43,866 bases of DNA from a bacterium (GTDB lineage Bacteria > Auribacterota > UBA3054), in NCBI GenBank assembly GCA_017649705.1, contig JAGCGH010000095.1:1-43866 (forward strand), written 5' to 3'. The notes under the pieces were generated by a model. That model was not told where the DNA came from. It ran no database searches and saw only the letters and a program-made list of their open reading frames with translations. A program made the position numbers and the translations under genes. Shown here piece by piece: positions 35,294 through 43,866 of this stretch. The stretch's first letter is position 1. Each line of letters begins with the position of its first letter.

Positions 35294-36391
35294 ATGCGCG
35301 TCGTCCACATCGGAAAATATTACTGGCCCTATCAGCGGGGCATCGAGACTTACCTGAAAACTCTTGCGGAAGGTCTCAATTCCCGCTGCGAACTGACCGT
35401 CATCGTCAGCAACGAAGACCGCACTACTGTGGAGGAAACTGTAAACGGCGTCCGGGTCATCCGTCTGAAAAGGGCTTTCAAACTGGCCGGCACCGATTTT
35501 CTCTTTTCCCTTCCCGCCAAGCTGAAGGAGCTGAAGCCCGACATAGTCCACGTGCATCTCCCCAACCCCTGGGCTGAGACCGCCTGGAAGCTTGCCGGCC
35601 GCCCGGGCCGGCTTTTCGTCTCCTTCCACAGCGACATCATCAGGCAGAAGTTCCTGCTGAAATTTTACGCTCCTTTCCACCGCGCCTTTTTGAGGCAGGC
35701 GGAAAAAATTATCGTGGCCACCCCCAACCATATCAAATACTCCCCCTTCCTCTCCCAGCTTCCTCCCGAAAAACTTTCAGTGGTGCACTACGGCCTGAAG
35801 GCGGAGGAATACCTTCGCCCCTCCGAGGACATTATAGGGGCGTTAAAGGACAAATACTCGCCCTATGTCCTTTCCGTGGGGCAGCTGGTGTATTACAAAG
35901 GCTTCGAGGTCTTGATCGCGGCGCTTGGGGAAACGCGGGACCTTTCCCTTTTGATCGTCGGAACGGGGCCTTTGATGGAGAAGCTTAAAAAGCAGGCAAG
36001 GGAGCTCGGCCTTCAGGACCGCGTGGCGTTTCTGGGCCACATACCCCAGGAAGAGCTGCTGGCCGCCTATTACGGCTGCGAATTTTTCGTTCTTCCCTCC
36101 ACTTTTCGCAGCGAAGCTTTCGGCCTGGTGCAGCTGGAGGCGTTCCTTGCTGAGAAGGCGGTCGTCAGCACCGATCTTCCCTCCGGCGTCCCCTACGTCA
36201 ACCAGGACGGAGTGACAGGCATAGTTGTGCCACCCGGCGACGCCAAGGCCCTTTCCGCGGCCATGAGGACCCTTGAAGACGATCCCGAGGCGATGTCTCG
36301 GATGGGGAAAGCCGCCCGCCAAAGGGCGCTGAGAGATTTCAGTTCCGAAACTATGGTGGAAGAGACCTTCCGGCTTTACCAGGAAAAATAA
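35294..36391 (+). CDS. Glycosyltransferase family 4
   Basis: This 365-residue GT-B protein opens with the GT4 pattern MRVVHIGKYYWPYQRGIETY and carries the donor-site motif RSEAFGLVQLEAF, with Glu residues seven apart, followed by TDLPSGVPYVNQDGVTG. A VHVHLPNPWAE segment is seen in mannosyl- and glucosyltransferases of exopolysaccharide clusters. No ribosome site exists: the ATG follows a terminator hairpin by four bases and I see no promoter hexamers suitably placed. How it is expressed is unclear; readthrough of the terminator is one option. It converges with rnhA on a shared terminator. Confidence 0.9.
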   Translation: MRVVHIGKYYWPYQRGIETYLKTLAEGLNSRCELTVIVSNEDRTTVEETVNGVRVIRLKRAFKLAGTDFLFSLPAKLKELKPDIVHVHLPNPWAETAWKLAGRPGRLFVSFHSDIIRQKFLLKFYAPFHRAFLRQAEKIIVATPNHIKYSPFLSQLPPEKLSVVHYGLKAEEYLRPSEDIIGALKDKYSPYVLSVGQLVYYKGFEVLIAALGETRDLSLLIVGTGPLMEKLKKQARELGLQDRVAFLGHIPQEELLAAYYGCEFFVLPSTFRSEAFGLVQLEAFLAEKAVVSTDLPSGVPYVNQDGVTGIVVPPGDAKALSAAMRTLEDDPEAMSRMGKAARQRALRDFSSETMVEETFRLYQEK

Positions 36392-36417
36392 AAAAAGGCG
36401 GCTTTGCCGCCTTTTTT
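36391..36417. terminator. Bidirectional intrinsic terminator between GT4 and rnhA
   Basis: A 6-bp stem (36397-36402 with 36406-36411) around TTT, flanked by six A and six T, works in both directions. It overlaps the last stop base of the GT4 gene and the first two of the rnhA stop. Confidence 0.9.
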
Positions 36418-37111
36418 AATCCTCCTCGATGCCCCACTCGTTGAGGTCTTTCTTTTTCTCCGCCTCCTCGAATTCCTCGTAGGCCATCTCCTGCTCCACC
36501 AGCTTTCTTATCTCCTCGCTCTGGGGATCTTCCAGCTCGTGGCCGCCGCTGTCGTCGTAATAGGGGTCCTTGTATGAGCTTTCCTTCTTTTCCGAGGCGG
36601 CTTTCTTCGGTTTGTTGATCTTTTCGCCGTGAGGGACGCTGACTTCCTTCAGGACGCCTTCCTCCATCCTGTTCCTGGCCTCGAAGCTGGCTATTTTGTC
36701 CGCGTCCTCGTTTTCCGGGACTTTGGAATGGCCTGGCACCTGCAGGAAGGAGAGTTTGGGGAATTCCTTTATGTACTCCCTTAGAGCCTCCACCAGCTCA
36801 ACATTGCTCTTGGCCTTCCAGCCTTTGCTAAGAAGCCCTATGACGTAGCTGCTGTCGGAGCAGATGACCACGGGCTTGCTTTTGTCCTTGATGCATGAGA
36901 GCCCGTGACGCAGCGCTTCCAGCTCGGCGATGTTGTTGGTGACGTTGTCCCCCAGATAGACGCCGAAATTCTTGCGGTAGCCGTTGTATATAAGGACAAT
37001 CCCGCACCCACCGGGTCCGGGATTGCCTTTGCAGGCGCCGTCGCAGTACAGGTATATGACGTTCTTGTAATGTGTGACGGGCCGCGCTTTGGAAGAGGAT
37101 TCGAAGCTCAT
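36416..37111 (-). CDS. rnhA: Ribonuclease HI with charged C-terminal extension
   Basis: This 231-residue protein degrades RNA in RNA-DNA hybrids. The catalytic residues match E. coli RNase HI: Asp24 (in DGACKGNPGPGG), Glu63 (NNIAELEA), Asp86 (CSDSSYV), Asp138, and His128 in VPGHSKVPENEDAD. The fold ends near residue 145. The remaining 85 residues are Glu/Lys/Asp-rich (EEAEKKKDLNEWGIEED at the end) and probably disordered, which is unusual for a bacterial RNase HI. The length excludes the usual N-terminal hybrid-binding domain. The start overlaps yebC by ATGA. Confidence 0.93.
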   Translation of the reverse strand: MSFESSSKARPVTHYKNVIYLYCDGACKGNPGPGGCGIVLIYNGYRKNFGVYLGDNVTNNIAELEALRHGLSCIKDKSKPVVICSDSSYVIGLLSKGWKAKSNVELVEALREYIKEFPKLSFLQVPGHSKVPENEDADKIASFEARNRMEEGVLKEVSVPHGEKINKPKKAASEKKESSYKDPYYDDSGGHELEDPQSEEIRKLVEQEMAYEEFEEAEKKKDLNEWGIEED

Positions 37112-37860
37112 TCTTCCGAAGCCTGCTCCATTATGCTGTCGTCCATTTTGTAGTTGGCGTAGACGTTCTGCACGTCGTCCAGCTCGTCCAGGGCGTCGAT
37201 GAGGCCCAAAACCATTTTGGCGGTCTTGACGTCAAGGACGTCCACGGTGGAAGCCGGGATCTGCTCAAGGTTGGCCTCGATGTAGTCTATTTTGGCGTCT
37301 TCCAAAGCCTTCTTGACGGCCTCGAATTCGGAGATGCCGCAGATGATCTCGTAGTTCTCCTCGTCGCTGGTCATGTCCTCGGCGCCGGCGTCGGAGACCA
37401 GAAGGAAGAGATCGTCTTCCGTTGCCTTGCTGAGAGGCACGCGGATGACGCCTTTCTTGTTGAACTGCCAGGCCACAGCGCCGTTGCTGGCGAGGGAGCC
37501 GCCCCTCTTGTCGAGGGTGGTGCGGACTTCCGCGGCCGCGCGGTTCTTGTTGTCGGTCAAGACTTCTATGATTAGGCCCACGGGACCGGCGTAACCTTCG
37601 TAGATGATCTCCTCATAGCTCACGCCGGGCAGTTCGCCAGTGCCTTTCTTGATGGCGCGGGTCACGTTGTCCTGGGGCATGTTGACGGCTTTGGCCGCCA
37701 GAATGGCGGTTCTCAGCCTGGGGTTCATGTTGGGATCGCCGCCGCCGTCCTTGGCCGCGATGGTGATCTCCTTGGAGATCTTGCTGAAGGCTTTGCCGCG
37801 CTTGGCGTCGGCAGCCGCTTTCTTGTGTTTAATGGATGACCACTTATTATGTCCACTCAT
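37108..37860 (-). CDS. yebC: YebC/PmpR-family DNA-binding regulator or translation factor
   Basis: This 250-residue protein begins with the family signature MSGHNKWSSIKHKKAAADA and continues with KGTGELPGVSYEEIIYEGYAGPVG (cited in part), as in the three-domain YebC family. YebC proteins have been described as transcription regulators and, recently, as factors that help translate proline-rich stretches. Length is normal. An AGGAG ribosome site lies before the ATG. It lies 28 bases after the hldA stop and overlaps rnhA downstream by ATGA. Confidence 0.96.
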   Translation of the reverse strand: MSGHNKWSSIKHKKAAADAKRGKAFSKISKEITIAAKDGGGDPNMNPRLRTAILAAKAVNMPQDNVTRAIKKGTGELPGVSYEEIIYEGYAGPVGLIIEVLTDNKNRAAAEVRTTLDKRGGSLASNGAVAWQFNKKGVIRVPLSKATEDDLFLLVSDAGAEDMTSDEENYEIICGISEFEAVKKALEDAKIDYIEANLEQIPASTVDVLDVKTAKMVLGLIDALDELDDVQNVYANYKMDDSIMEQASEE

Positions 37861-37888
37861 TTTTATATCTCCTGATTGTGGATTTTAA

Positions 37889-38863
37889 TTAATTTTCCAT
37901 ATTGTTTATATTCTGCCGCAGTTCTTCTATGGTCGTGCTTGCGGTTCCGCTCTTTCCGACCACTATGCCGCCGGCGACGTTGGCCAGTTTGCAGGCGTCC
38001 CAGGGGGATGCCCCGGCCGCGAGAGCCGCTGCCAAAACAGCCACGACGGTGTCGCCAGCGCCGGAAACGTCGAAAACGCCTCTCAGGGTCGCCGCCTTGG
38101 CCCTCTTTACGGAGCCAGAACGCTCACAGAGGGCTATTCCGTGCTCGCTGAGGGTGATGACAAGGCTTTCGATGTTATGGCGCCTAAAAAAGGCCTGAGC
38201 GATGTTTTCAAGCTCGTCCACCGGCGCTCCCTTAGGAGTGTAGCCGGAAAGGATCAGCGCTTCCTCAAGATTCGGGGTGGCGAAAGTTCCGCTGTAGGGC
38301 TCCTTGCAATATCTGTTGGGATCCACCAAAAGCGTTTTGCCGGAGGCCGCAAGCGCGTCGTTGAGCGCCTTGTCGCACAAACCTTTGTTGTAGTCCTGAA
38401 GGATCAGCACATCGCAGGTGGAGGATAGTTCCTGCGCGGTATGATAAAGTTTTTCATGGACTTTATCCTCGTTTTTTATGATGCCGTCCCAGTCGACTCT
38501 CACGACGTGCTGGGATCTGGCGATTATCCTGACTTTTCTGGTGGTGTGGATCTCTTCGCTCACGATGAGCCCTGAGCAGTCCACGCCGGCTTTCGTCAAA
38601 AGGTCCCTGAGGTGAGATCCGTCCGCGTCGTTGCCGATGGCGCCAACCATGACAGGCACGGCGCCCAGCGAGGCCAGGTTCATGGCCACGTTGGCGGCGG
38701 CTCCCGGCATGTCGCTTTCAGAGGTCACTCTGACCACGGGCACCGGAGCCTCGGGAGAAATCCTGTTGACCTCTCCCCTGACGAAGTGATCCAGCATGAC
38801 GTCCCCCACCACTAAGACGCGGCGGCCCGCCATGCCGTCCAGAATGTTCGGGATATTATTCAT
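37889..38863 (-). CDS. hldA: D-glycero-beta-D-manno-heptose-7-phosphate kinase
   Basis: This 324-residue PfkB-family sugar kinase matches the first domain of HldE or stand-alone HldA. The start (GRRVLVVGDVMLDHFVRGEVNRISPEAPVPV, cited in part) and GAAANVAMNLASLG segments are diagnostic, and the catalytic Asp271 lies in GAGDT. It phosphorylates heptose 7-phosphate at C1 in the route to ADP-heptose for lipopolysaccharide core. The adenylyltransferase domain is absent, so a separate HldC should exist elsewhere. It overlaps the end of the EF-G-like gene by 8 bases. Confidence 0.93.
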   Translation of the reverse strand: MNNIPNILDGMAGRRVLVVGDVMLDHFVRGEVNRISPEAPVPVVRVTSESDMPGAAANVAMNLASLGAVPVMVGAIGNDADGSHLRDLLTKAGVDCSGLIVSEEIHTTRKVRIIARSQHVVRVDWDGIIKNEDKVHEKLYHTAQELSSTCDVLILQDYNKGLCDKALNDALAASGKTLLVDPNRYCKEPYSGTFATPNLEEALILSGYTPKGAPVDELENIAQAFFRRHNIESLVITLSEHGIALCERSGSVKRAKAATLRGVFDVSGAGDTVVAVLAAALAAGASPWDACKLANVAGGIVVGKSGTASTTIEELRQNINNMEN

Positions 38864-40874
38864 CCTCTTTCTTGGTGGCTTCGTAGGCGGCTTTGATCTG
38901 CTGGGCGATGTTGGGAGGAACTTCGCTGTAGTGGGAGAATTCCATGGAATAGGTGCCTGAGCCGCCTGTGATGGAGCGCAGTTCGGAGCAGAAGCGGAAC
39001 ATTTCCGCCTGCGGGACCTGGCACTTGATGACCTGGAAATCTCCGTCCATGTCCATGCCCATGATCTGGCCGCGCTTCGAGTTGATGGTGCCGTTGATGT
39101 CGCCCATGAATTCCTGCGGGCAGGAGATAGCGACGTTCATGATGGGCTCGAGAAGAATGGGGTCCGCTTTCTTGATGGCTTCGCTGAAAGCCATGCGTCC
39201 GGCGATCTGGAAGGCGATATCCTTGGAGTCGACGGGGTGTTCCTTGCCGTCGTAGAGCTCCACGACGACGTCCACCACGCGGCAGCCGGCGATGACGCCT
39301 TCGCTCATGCGGGACTGAATGCCTTTGTCCACGGAGGGAATGTAGGAGCCGGAGATAACGCCGCCCACGATCATATCCTTGAATTCATAACCCTTGTCCC
39401 TTTCGTTGGGTTTCAGGCGGATGGCCACTTCGCCGAACTGGCCGGCGCCGCCGGACTGCTTTTTATGGCGGTATCTGACGTCCGCGGTGCCGCGGATGGT
39501 CTCATGGTAAGCGACCTTGGGAGTGGCGGTCTTGACTTCGGCTCTGAATTTGTCCTTGAGCCAGCGGAAGGAAACGTCCAGGTGCACGTCGCCCATGCCG
39601 GAAACAAGCAGTTCGTGCGTTTCCTGGGGACGGTCGACATGGATCGTGGGATCCTCCTCCACCAGCCTGTTCAGGCCTTCGGAGATGCGTTCCTCGTCGC
39701 CCTGCTTGGCGGCGGTCACGGCCACGGTCATGACGGGATTCGGGAATTCTATGGGCGGGAAGTCGACTTTGACGGCGCCCAGGGTGTCGTTCAGTTTGGT
39801 CTTTTTAAGCTTGGAGACGGCCACGATCTCGCCAGGGAGCGCGGCGTCCACGGTGATCCTTTCCTTGCCCTGCATGATCATCAGATCGCCGAAGCGTTCC
39901 TTCTGGCCGCTGGTCTGGTTCTGAACTTCCGTTCCGGAAGAGATCTTGCCCTGATAGACTCTCAGGAAGGTGATCTGTCCTACGGAGGAATCCGTCACGG
40001 TCTTGAAGACGTAGGCGCAGGCCGGGGCGTTGGGATCGGGTTTCAATTCCACGTCGCCGACTTTCTTCACGCCTTTGTCGGCGGGGCTGGGCAGATAATT
40101 CAAAATGGCGTCGATGACTTCCTGGATGCCCAGAAGGCCGGTGGCGGAGGTGACCAGAACGGGGCAGATCTTGCCCTGGGCCATGCCTTTCTTGAAGCCT
40201 TCGGCCACTTCCTCGTCGGAGAGCTGTTCACCATCCAAATATTTCATCGTCAAAATGTCGTCGGTCTCCGCCACGACTTCCACAAGTTTCGTCTTCATGG
40301 ATTCGAAGAGAGCCGGATCGGCGGAGCCGGGATCGGAGCCGAAAAGCGACACGACGCCTTTGAAACCGGCTTCCATGCCCACGGGGATGACGATGGGGCA
40401 GCACTTGTTGCCGAAATCTTTCACGAGAGCCGCCAGAGTATCCTCGAAATTGGCGCCTTCCTTGTCGGCTTTGTTGATGACGAACATCTTCGGGAGCTCG
40501 AACTTGTCCAGGATCTTGACGTTCTGGATAGCGCCCACTTCCACGCCCTTGGTGGCGTCCACCACAACGATGGCGCTGTCGGCCACCGCGGCGTTGGCCA
40601 CCACCTGGCCCACGAAGTCAGTGTAGCCCGGCATGTCGCCTATGAAGACGTTGTAGCCGTTGGTGGTGAAGTAAAGGTTGCTGCCGTGGATGCTGACGCC
40701 TCTTTCCTGTTCTTCGGGCGTGCAGTCGGAAACTGTGTTCTTATCGAGGATCGTCCCTAATCTTTGGGTCATACCCGTTTTGTTTAACATGGCTTCCACA
40801 AGGCTGGTCTTGCCGGAAGCGGCGTGGCCGACCACAATGACATTCCTGATCTTCTCTACCGGGACGTTTTTCAT
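38856..40874 (-). CDS. EF-G-like translational GTPase paralogue (FusA2 type)
   Basis: This 672-residue protein is a full-length EF-G-like GTPase. The P-loop is GHAASGKT at 16-23, and G4 is in VINKADKE. The G3 motif at 80-84 is DMPGY; the canonical DTPGH has His, which activates the hydrolytic water, so Tyr84 replaces it. The P-loop AAS also differs from the AHIDAGKT of canonical EF-G. FusA2-type paralogues share this Tyr; some appear to lack ribosome-dependent GTPase activity. So it is probably not the main EF-G, and a canonical copy should exist elsewhere. It is the first gene of an operon with hldA, yebC and rnhA, and has a strong promoter and a 90-base leader. Confidence 0.9.
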   Translation of the reverse strand: MKNVPVEKIRNVIVVGHAASGKTSLVEAMLNKTGMTQRLGTILDKNTVSDCTPEEQERGVSIHGSNLYFTTNGYNVFIGDMPGYTDFVGQVVANAAVADSAIVVVDATKGVEVGAIQNVKILDKFELPKMFVINKADKEGANFEDTLAALVKDFGNKCCPIVIPVGMEAGFKGVVSLFGSDPGSADPALFESMKTKLVEVVAETDDILTMKYLDGEQLSDEEVAEGFKKGMAQGKICPVLVTSATGLLGIQEVIDAILNYLPSPADKGVKKVGDVELKPDPNAPACAYVFKTVTDSSVGQITFLRVYQGKISSGTEVQNQTSGQKERFGDLMIMQGKERITVDAALPGEIVAVSKLKKTKLNDTLGAVKVDFPPIEFPNPVMTVAVTAAKQGDEERISEGLNRLVEEDPTIHVDRPQETHELLVSGMGDVHLDVSFRWLKDKFRAEVKTATPKVAYHETIRGTADVRYRHKKQSGGAGQFGEVAIRLKPNERDKGYEFKDMIVGGVISGSYIPSVDKGIQSRMSEGVIAGCRVVDVVVELYDGKEHPVDSKDIAFQIAGRMAFSEAIKKADPILLEPIMNVAISCPQEFMGDINGTINSKRGQIMGMDMDGDFQVIKCQVPQAEMFRFCSELRSITGGSGTYSMEFSHYSEVPPNIAQQIKAAYEATKKEDE

Positions 40875-40970: not shown

Positions 40971-40999
40971 ATTATACAAAAAGGGCATTTTCATGACAA
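40971..40999 (-). promoter_or_regulatory. Strong promoter of the EF-G-like/hldA/yebC/rnhA operon
   Basis: On the minus strand TTGTCA (40999-40994, 5 of 6 matches) is separated by exactly 17 bp from a perfect TATAAT (40976-40971). A second TATAAT lies at 40968-40963. It is the only clear consensus-spaced promoter with a strong -35 here. The start is near 40964. Confidence 0.8.
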
Positions 41000-41034: not shown

Positions 41035-41061
41035 AAAGAAAAAGGCCCTCAAAAGAGGGCC
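41035..41061 (-). terminator. Intrinsic terminator after ung
   Basis: A 7-bp stem (41044-41050 with 41055-41061) with a four-base loop is followed, on the minus strand, by TTTTT-C-TTT. It ends the ROK/PIG-L/nagB/ung unit and lies just upstream of the EF-G-like promoter. Confidence 0.88.
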
Positions 41062-43440: not shown

Positions 43441-43866
43441 TTATTCCTGTCCGGGAACGACAGCCAAAGAGGCGGCGGCGATGGCCTGGCCGTGGCGTTT
43501 GTCGCGTTCGCTGGGGGTGTGGAAAGCGATCTTCTCGGAGAGTTCGGGGAACTCGGCCTTCAAGGTTTCCTGCGCCTTCTCAAGGATGATGGCGCCGCCT
43601 TCGCCGCTCGTCACGCGGCCGAGGCTCAGGATGTGGCGGATGTCGTAGAAACTGGCGTAATGCGCCACGCCGTAGCCCATGAAGACGCCGATGGTGTTGT
43701 AGATCTTCCTGGCTCTGGCGTCACCTTCCGCCATCAGCTGCTGCACGTATTTCAGTTTTTCAGGCAGCTTCAAGCTTTCGTCGCATTCGATGCCGGCGGG
43801 CTTCAGAAGACGGCCGACGCACTGCTGGGAGAAATACTGCACGCCGCAGCCGGCGTCGCCGGACCA
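43441..43866 (-). CDS. ROK-family-like protein, C-terminal part (partial)
   Basis: The frame is open to the window edge, so the N terminus is missing; 141 residues are visible, ending in TAA. At the edge it reads WSGDAGCGVQYFSQQCVGRL, a segment I associate with ROK-like proteins near amino-sugar genes. Later come a GVFMGYGVAHYASFYDIRH segment (sugar kinase-like) and an EKAQETLKAEFPEL helix. The ATP-binding DxGxT and zinc-binding regions lie outside the window, so kinase or repressor activity cannot be judged. It is transcribed with the PIG-L and nagB genes, 30 bases upstream. Confidence 0.55.
   Translation of the reverse strand, partial: WSGDAGCGVQYFSQQCVGRLLKPAGIECDESLKLPEKLKYVQQLMAEGDARARKIYNTIGVFMGYGVAHYASFYDIRHILSLGRVTSGEGGAIILEKAQETLKAEFPELSEKIAFHTPSERDKRHGQAIAAASLAVVPGQE

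Follow-up and report, generated by a model that had tools for sequence, protein, structure and literature searches.

An EFG II paralogue of elongation factor G encoded beside yebC in an Auribacterota genome and its possible role in slow or stalled elongation

What does a bacterium do with a second elongation factor G (EF-G) whose G3 motif lacks the histidine of the canonical factor, and can the residue found in its place answer that question? The locus that raises it lies on a stretch of 43,866 nucleotides, here called the window (positions 1 to 43,866 of contig JAGCGH010000095.1, assembly GCA_017649705.1), from a member of the Auribacterota lineage UBA3054. The original prediction placed an EF-G paralogue with the G3 motif DMPGY at 38856-40874 and regarded its tyrosine, Tyr84, as a distinguishing feature. 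The coordinates are right; the gene, whose strand had not been stated, lies on the minus strand (40874 to 38856) and has 672 amino acid codons followed by a stop codon. Profile matches and trees identify the product as a member of EFG II (EF-G2/FusA2-type), a known subfamily, and thus as a five-domain, GTP-binding EF-G paralogue that exists beside canonical EF-G. Its conserved neighbor yebC, which had been listed merely as an operon member, is more informative than Tyr84.

All five EF-G domains are present in order in the window protein (Pfam GTP_EFTU, EF-G_D2, EFG_III, EFG_IV and EFG_C), and its GTP-binding motifs are intact. The P-loop, GHAASGKT (codons at 40806..40829, minus strand, as for every gene, promoter and hairpin of the window given below), has Ala19 at the position of EF-G Asp22. 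In G3, DMPGY (40623..40637), Tyr84 replaces the EF-G histidine (His87 of T. thermophilus EF-G), and G4 reads NKAD at residue 134. The missing P-loop Asp and G3 His are both invariant in the canonical EF-Gs of the sampled set. Domain IV keeps Gln479 and His546, which we take to be its tip, together with an extra Lys471-Lys472 pair; Gln479 is retained in 194 of the 195 EFG II rows of our alignment and His546 in every one. The G2 motif, RGVSI (40689..40703), carries Ser61 in place of the Thr of RGITI, an EFG II trait according to PMC3150367.

To place the protein, 248 EF-G family proteins were aligned from the window's phylum, Omnitrophota, the Lentisphaerae-containing phylum of locus L059, Cloacimonadota, actinobacteria and 80 named loci, together with two reference structures; the g59 locus set, which repeats named loci, was excluded from the trees. 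The trees were restricted to domains II-V because G-domain motifs would have made the test circular, and they are independent of those motifs. The FastTree phylogeny of 247 rows unites all 195 EF-Gs that lack the G3 His in a single clade (support 0.925) and leaves every one of the 52 rows with the His outside it. IQ-TREE recovered the same split from 73 chosen rows, with an SH-like approximate likelihood ratio test (SH-aLRT) value of 99. A single loss of the His at the base of the clade, with no regain in this sample, would explain the split most simply. The window gene and the chain of PDB 7uvp fall inside this clade, which is EFG II as defined by Margus and colleagues (PMC3150367). The proposed phylogenetic check thus bore out a FusA2/EF-G2-type paralogue, which both trees set apart from canonical EF-G.

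Most of the published sequence traits agree with this placement. The window protein matches 11 of the 13 EFG II positions given in PMC3150367: all six of type I (G16, L25, S61, T292, G336 and K355) and five of the seven of type II (Asp, Val, Leu, Lys, Lys, Glu and Gly). The two departures are Val253 for Leu and Asp516 for Glu, and these positions are themselves defined by frequency (84-96% in PMC3150367), so that two mismatches are compatible with membership. Shared with the subfamily as described there are the Ser in G2, the Gly and Leu of the P-loop region, Gly336 and Lys355 in domain II and the Lys-Lys pair in loop I of domain IV, as well as retention beside a str-operon EF-G. Of the G3 His and P-loop Asp by which canonical EF-G (EFG I) is recognized, the window protein has neither. 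In the parts of PMC3150367 consulted, G3 is written only as DxPG.

EFG II is described as always accompanied by another EF-G, and this holds in the window's genome (assembly of 2.12 Mb, 178 contigs, 89% complete). One other full EF-G was found there, on contig C148; it has the DTPGH motif that the original prediction suggested looking for, and it follows rpoC, rpsL and rpsG in an rpoC-rpsL-rpsG-fusA cluster. Neither of the outcomes that would have refuted the prediction, a genome with no second fusA or a position with canonical EF-G in the phylogeny, was observed. This protein scores 1105 bits with the EF-G equivalog TIGR00484, whereas the window EFG II, 36% identical to it, scores 594.9, below the cut-off of 659.4. 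The two share five domains, the GTP-binding motifs and the Gln and His of the domain IV tip; Asp22 and His87 are present in canonical EF-G and absent from the window protein. The NCBIfam entry PRK12740.1-5 was rejected as an EFG II identifier, since EFG I (837.8) and EFG II (811.3) both exceed the cut-off of 583. A third EF-G type (L305-L317) occurs in several families of the window's phylum, with 33-36% identity to the window gene. The window gene does not belong to it: the third type retains both the Asp and the His, and all 13 of its placed rows branch outside EFG II (a 14th, L318, had too few aligned residues to be placed).

The trees also settle how Tyr84 should be regarded. No EFG II row has a His at the G3 site (0/195). 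Before removal of duplicates, Tyr occupies the site in 156 of 203 non-His rows and F, D, T, N, S, A, C, L or M in the others; the P-loop Asp is absent from 199 of the same 203. In Cloacimonadota EFG II proteins (L275-L304 and L338-L363), this site is highly variable and looks unconstrained, its residues including Y, N, S, T, C, A, F and L. Tyr84 is therefore an ordinary hallmark of the subfamily rather than a peculiarity, and it is not fixed, so that its standing as a distinguishing feature falls away. A mycobacterial EF-G2 reportedly showed no ribosome-dependent GTPase activity. Characterized EFG II members differ in ribosomal GTP hydrolysis (PMC3150367 and PMC12775393, as cited there). Given this variability of the residue, with ten alternatives and no His in 195 rows, and the differing behavior of members, GTPase status cannot be read from the Tyr, and we rejected Tyr84 as the mark of a GTPase-dead protein. 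A Bacteroides EF-G paralogue reportedly translocates without GTP hydrolysis (Han 2023, as cited in PMC12775393). The H92A variant of E. coli EF-G, in which hydrolysis is severely impaired, can still translocate over many rounds but departs slowly from the ribosome (PMC12775393).

Two characterized groups invite closer comparison. The suggested relationship to the mycobacterial type of FusA2, which has the same Tyr, held up: DTPGY occurs in PDB 9k0z and in the three strongest actinobacterial matches (L200, L201 and L202), all of which have a QQRSV-type G2. Actinobacterial FusA2 (PDB 9k0z/9k10, NF009377) thus shares with the window protein the Tyr at G3, the Asp-less P-loop and the Ser in G2, but its G2 reads QQRSV rather than RGVSI. 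Unlike the window protein, Mycobacterium tuberculosis EF-G2 has an insertion in domain II (PMC8446442). With NF009377, the window protein scores 507.3 bits against a cut-off of 890; it resembles this family while remaining below the equivalog level. Bacteroides EF-G2 (PDB 7uvp/8dmf) belongs to the same EFG II clade and also lacks the G3 His and P-loop Asp; it has Ser where the window protein has Tyr, and a long insertion in domain IV. The window protein reaches 557.3 bits with NF058620, the model for the GTPase-less Bacteroides EF-G2, against a cut-off of 1000. The chain of 7uvp/8dmf is labelled TetQ; by sequence it is an EFG II protein near a Bacteroidales EF-G2, and we have taken it as Bacteroides EF-G2 on the basis of this similarity.

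If the motif cannot say what the protein does, its genomic neighborhood can be consulted. In the window, EFG II and yebC are encoded in one apparent unit, with yebC at 37108..37860. Its product is a full-length member of the YebC/TACO1 family (NF001030, 317 bits against a cut-off of 243), and its best model is PRK00110, which we take to be that of YebC_I. When neighborhoods were compared, only yebC, with ruv genes behind it, persisted outside the window's own taxonomic order. We counted an EF-G gene as linked when yebC lay at most 1.5 kb downstream on the same strand, using tblastn, and dropped loci with less than 1 kb of downstream sequence (named loci, 5 EFG II and 3 EFG I; Omnitrophota, 2 EFG II and 1 EFG I; L059 phylum, 1; own phylum, 3 EFG I; actinobacteria, 1). 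Up to 30 loci per phylum search were scored first and the remaining strong EFG II matches later.

Among 44 genomes of the window's phylum, EFG II was found in 36 and yebC in 40, with exactly one yebC copy in each of the latter. The yebC gene lies downstream of EFG II in all 34 testable genomes of these 36, spanning 15 families (29 context loci, the window, and G021, G030, G036 and G037). The two others, G009 and G043, fall outside the testable set: their contigs end before the expected yebC, and no yebC was found in either genome. The genes may be separated, by the hldA-like gene in the window's order or by about 1.1 kb in family f10, a space that in G035 is filled by another reading frame. 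In G021, where EFG II is divided between two contigs, 13 bases separate the end of its C-terminal part from yebC. The EFG II gene of G037 (L327 3753-5752) is split between two frames, through either an assembly error or a broken gene.

Linkage extends to other phyla to differing degrees. It was observed in 54 of 57 Cloacimonadota loci (30/30 of those scored first and 24/27 later), where two of the remaining three have the genes in divergent orientation (L348 and L352) and one has no yebC neighbor. In Omnitrophota, 15 of 25 testable loci are linked (15/20 first, 0/5 later), and in the L059 phylum 11 of 33 (10/29 first, 1/4 later). Among the 80 named loci, 65 carry EFG II and 60 of these are testable; the four that are linked come from Omnitrophota (L057), Lentisphaerae (L059), UBP18 (L065) and Cloacimonadota (L120). 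Three of them reappear in the phylum sets (L057 as L220, L059 as L248 and L120 as L284), so that the named tally overlaps those of the phyla. In the Chloroflexi locus L094, EFG II and yebC are adjacent but divergent. Canonical EF-G shows no linkage to yebC in any of 31 testable loci. Mapped on the FastTree of all rows, the linked state changes 10 times over 214 scored rows (84 linked and 130 not, canonical EF-Gs included), and the arrangement has thus been gained or lost repeatedly. Same-strand adjacency is kept across families and phyla. No report of the pairing was found in the open-access literature, which is weak evidence of absence since subscription papers lay mostly outside this scope; YebC does not occur in the text of PMC3150367. 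An Omnitrophota EFG II group of about 650 residues (L328-L332), of which only the C-terminal two thirds aligned in the first search, seems to be missing part of the G' subdomain (judged by eye in L328 and L330), and no yebC was found near any of its members.

The unit in the window begins with a putative sigma-70-like promoter, TTGTCA-17-TATAAT (40971..40999), 97 bases before the EFG II start codon. As had been predicted, it is the best match in the window: it agrees with the consensus at 11 of 12 positions, and the runner-up in three scans with full coverage matches at 10. The element is kept at the same place in seven aligned genomes of the same genus, all with TATAAT and with slight variation in the first hexamer. 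A terminator-like hairpin (41044..41061) lies between ung and the EFG II gene. Downstream, a PfkB-family, HldA-like kinase gene (37889..38863; Pfam and NCBIfam), seen only in the window's own order (families f1-f4), overlaps the EFG II gene by 8 bases and is followed after a 28-base gap by yebC. An RNase HI-like gene, rnhA (36416..37111; NCBIfam and Pfam), overlaps yebC by 4 bases and is the last of the unit, which ends at a terminator-like hairpin of 12 pairs (36391..36417). The overlaps, short gap and terminal hairpin agree with the predicted operon of this gene with hldA, yebC and rnhA, except that the name hldA is not secured, the kinase scoring 308.7 bits against the TIGR02198 cut-off of 345. 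In the window's order (36391-38863), the kinase gene thus stands between EFG II and yebC, and the RNase HI-like gene comes after yebC, at the place that ruvC has in other families. A reading frame at the window end (43441-43842) has no NCBIfam match.

Relief of polyproline stalls is a known function of YebC; in Salmonella, YebC_I and EF-P are redundant, and the E. coli YebC_I is the more active form in vitro (PMC12234827). B. subtilis YebC2 has a similar role (PMC11990639), and the binding site of human TACO1 is close to the A site, bL12m and uS12m (PMC12724405). We propose that EFG II can bind the ribosome and push tRNA and mRNA forward, with ribosome-triggered GTP hydrolysis that may be slow, absent or differently triggered. 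Gene order suggests that slow or stalled elongation could be a task common to EFG II and YebC. Once YebC had helped peptide bonds to form at difficult, proline-rich sequences, EFG II would take over for the translocation that comes next and perhaps trigger the release of YebC. Because the action of YebC in the elongation cycle has to be followed by that of EF-G, a shared role is plausible. We regard such a translocase with altered GTP hydrolysis, working with YebC at slow or stalled elongation, as the best explanation, with roughly even chances of being correct.

Several observations weigh against this proposal. Most EFG II lineages lack the pairing (56/60 testable named loci, all 14 testable actinobacterial loci and 5 of 5 others), and the Bacteroidales locus L117 has no yebC nearby. 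The three extra phyla were chosen since a named locus there was already paired, and this sampling is therefore biased. Some YebC proteins are described as transcription factors or regulators (PMC11990639 and PMC12724405), and the window YebC appears YebC_I-like, a group for which roles in both translation and transcription have been claimed. Finally, EFG II may merely have joined an old yebC-ruvCAB operon. A same-strand ruvC follows yebC in 17 of the 29 linked own-phylum context loci and in 29 of the first 30 Cloacimonadota loci, often with ruvA and ruvB as well (these genes were first found by clustering neighboring reading frames and were named by NCBIfam), so that EFG II heads a yebC-ruvCAB unit in those loci. 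Moreover, in three genomes (G016, G023 and G027) yebC stands with ruv genes, which in two cases include ruvC, and no EFG II lies beside them.

Inherited operon structure is thus a serious rival: an ancestral insertion of EFG II at the head of a widespread operon would have been kept for shared expression only, with no step in common with YebC. We consider this explanation somewhat improbable, although it survives better than the others. In the window's order, no ruv gene was found in the flanks or the window (the rest of the genome was not searched), yet EFG II and yebC remain in one unit despite the inserted kinase gene. Side-by-side genes in divergent orientation, as in the Cloacimonadota loci L348 and L352 and the Chloroflexi locus L094, also count against it. 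In addition, three genomes (G029, G039 and G021) have efp, the gene of another polyproline factor, as the next gene upstream of EFG II, with gaps of 117, 317 and about 160 bases, producing the order efp-EFG II-yebC (efp at L167 10139-10690, L181 6279-6830 and L325 1648-2199; families f14 and f11). The window genome has its own efp elsewhere, on contig C136. In G014, efp is found downstream of canonical fusA, about 1.5 kb away (L178 5322-9398).

The efp and yebC neighbors also bear on a second alternative, in which EFG II is a plain spare translocase that substitutes for EF-G under stress or at low GTP, as proposed for Bacteroides EF-G2, without any special tie to YebC. The intact domain IV tip, the hydrolysis-independent translocation noted above and the induction of Bacteroides fusA2 on carbon limitation as fusA falls (PMC6989115) are all consistent with it. 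However, it leaves these repeated neighbors unexplained, and the near-consensus putative promoter fits constitutive expression as well as induction; we therefore find this alternative doubtful. That EFG II splits or guards stalled ribosomes instead of translocating is quite improbable: other EF-G paralogues, mtEFG2 and spdEFG2, are specialized for recycling (PMC3150367 and PMC4342817), but the window gene groups with EFG II and not with the third EF-G type that keeps the Asp and His, and the translocation-tip residues are kept in 194 and 195 of the 195 EFG II rows.

The proposal of a translocase acting with YebC has a bolder form, in which EFG II would serve YebC/TACO1 as a dedicated partner for translocation. 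The two genes, or three with EF-P in places, would form an elongation-rescue unit: YebC would speed the making of peptide bonds on difficult sequences, and an EFG II without normal ribosome-triggered GTP hydrolysis would replace YebC in the factor site and translocate. This version is tentative, and we think it unlikely to hold in full.

EFG II occurs widely, with no settled function. A neighbor with a known ribosomal role gives a concrete and testable guess where the motifs alone gave none. The authors of the TACO1 structure listed engagement of mtEF-G1 among possible mechanisms and called the timing of release an open question (PMC12724405); the EFG II-yebC pairing bears on this point, that is, on the trigger for TACO1/YebC release and the involvement of an EF-G. 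It is the gene order, rather than Tyr84, that is the part of this locus worth following.

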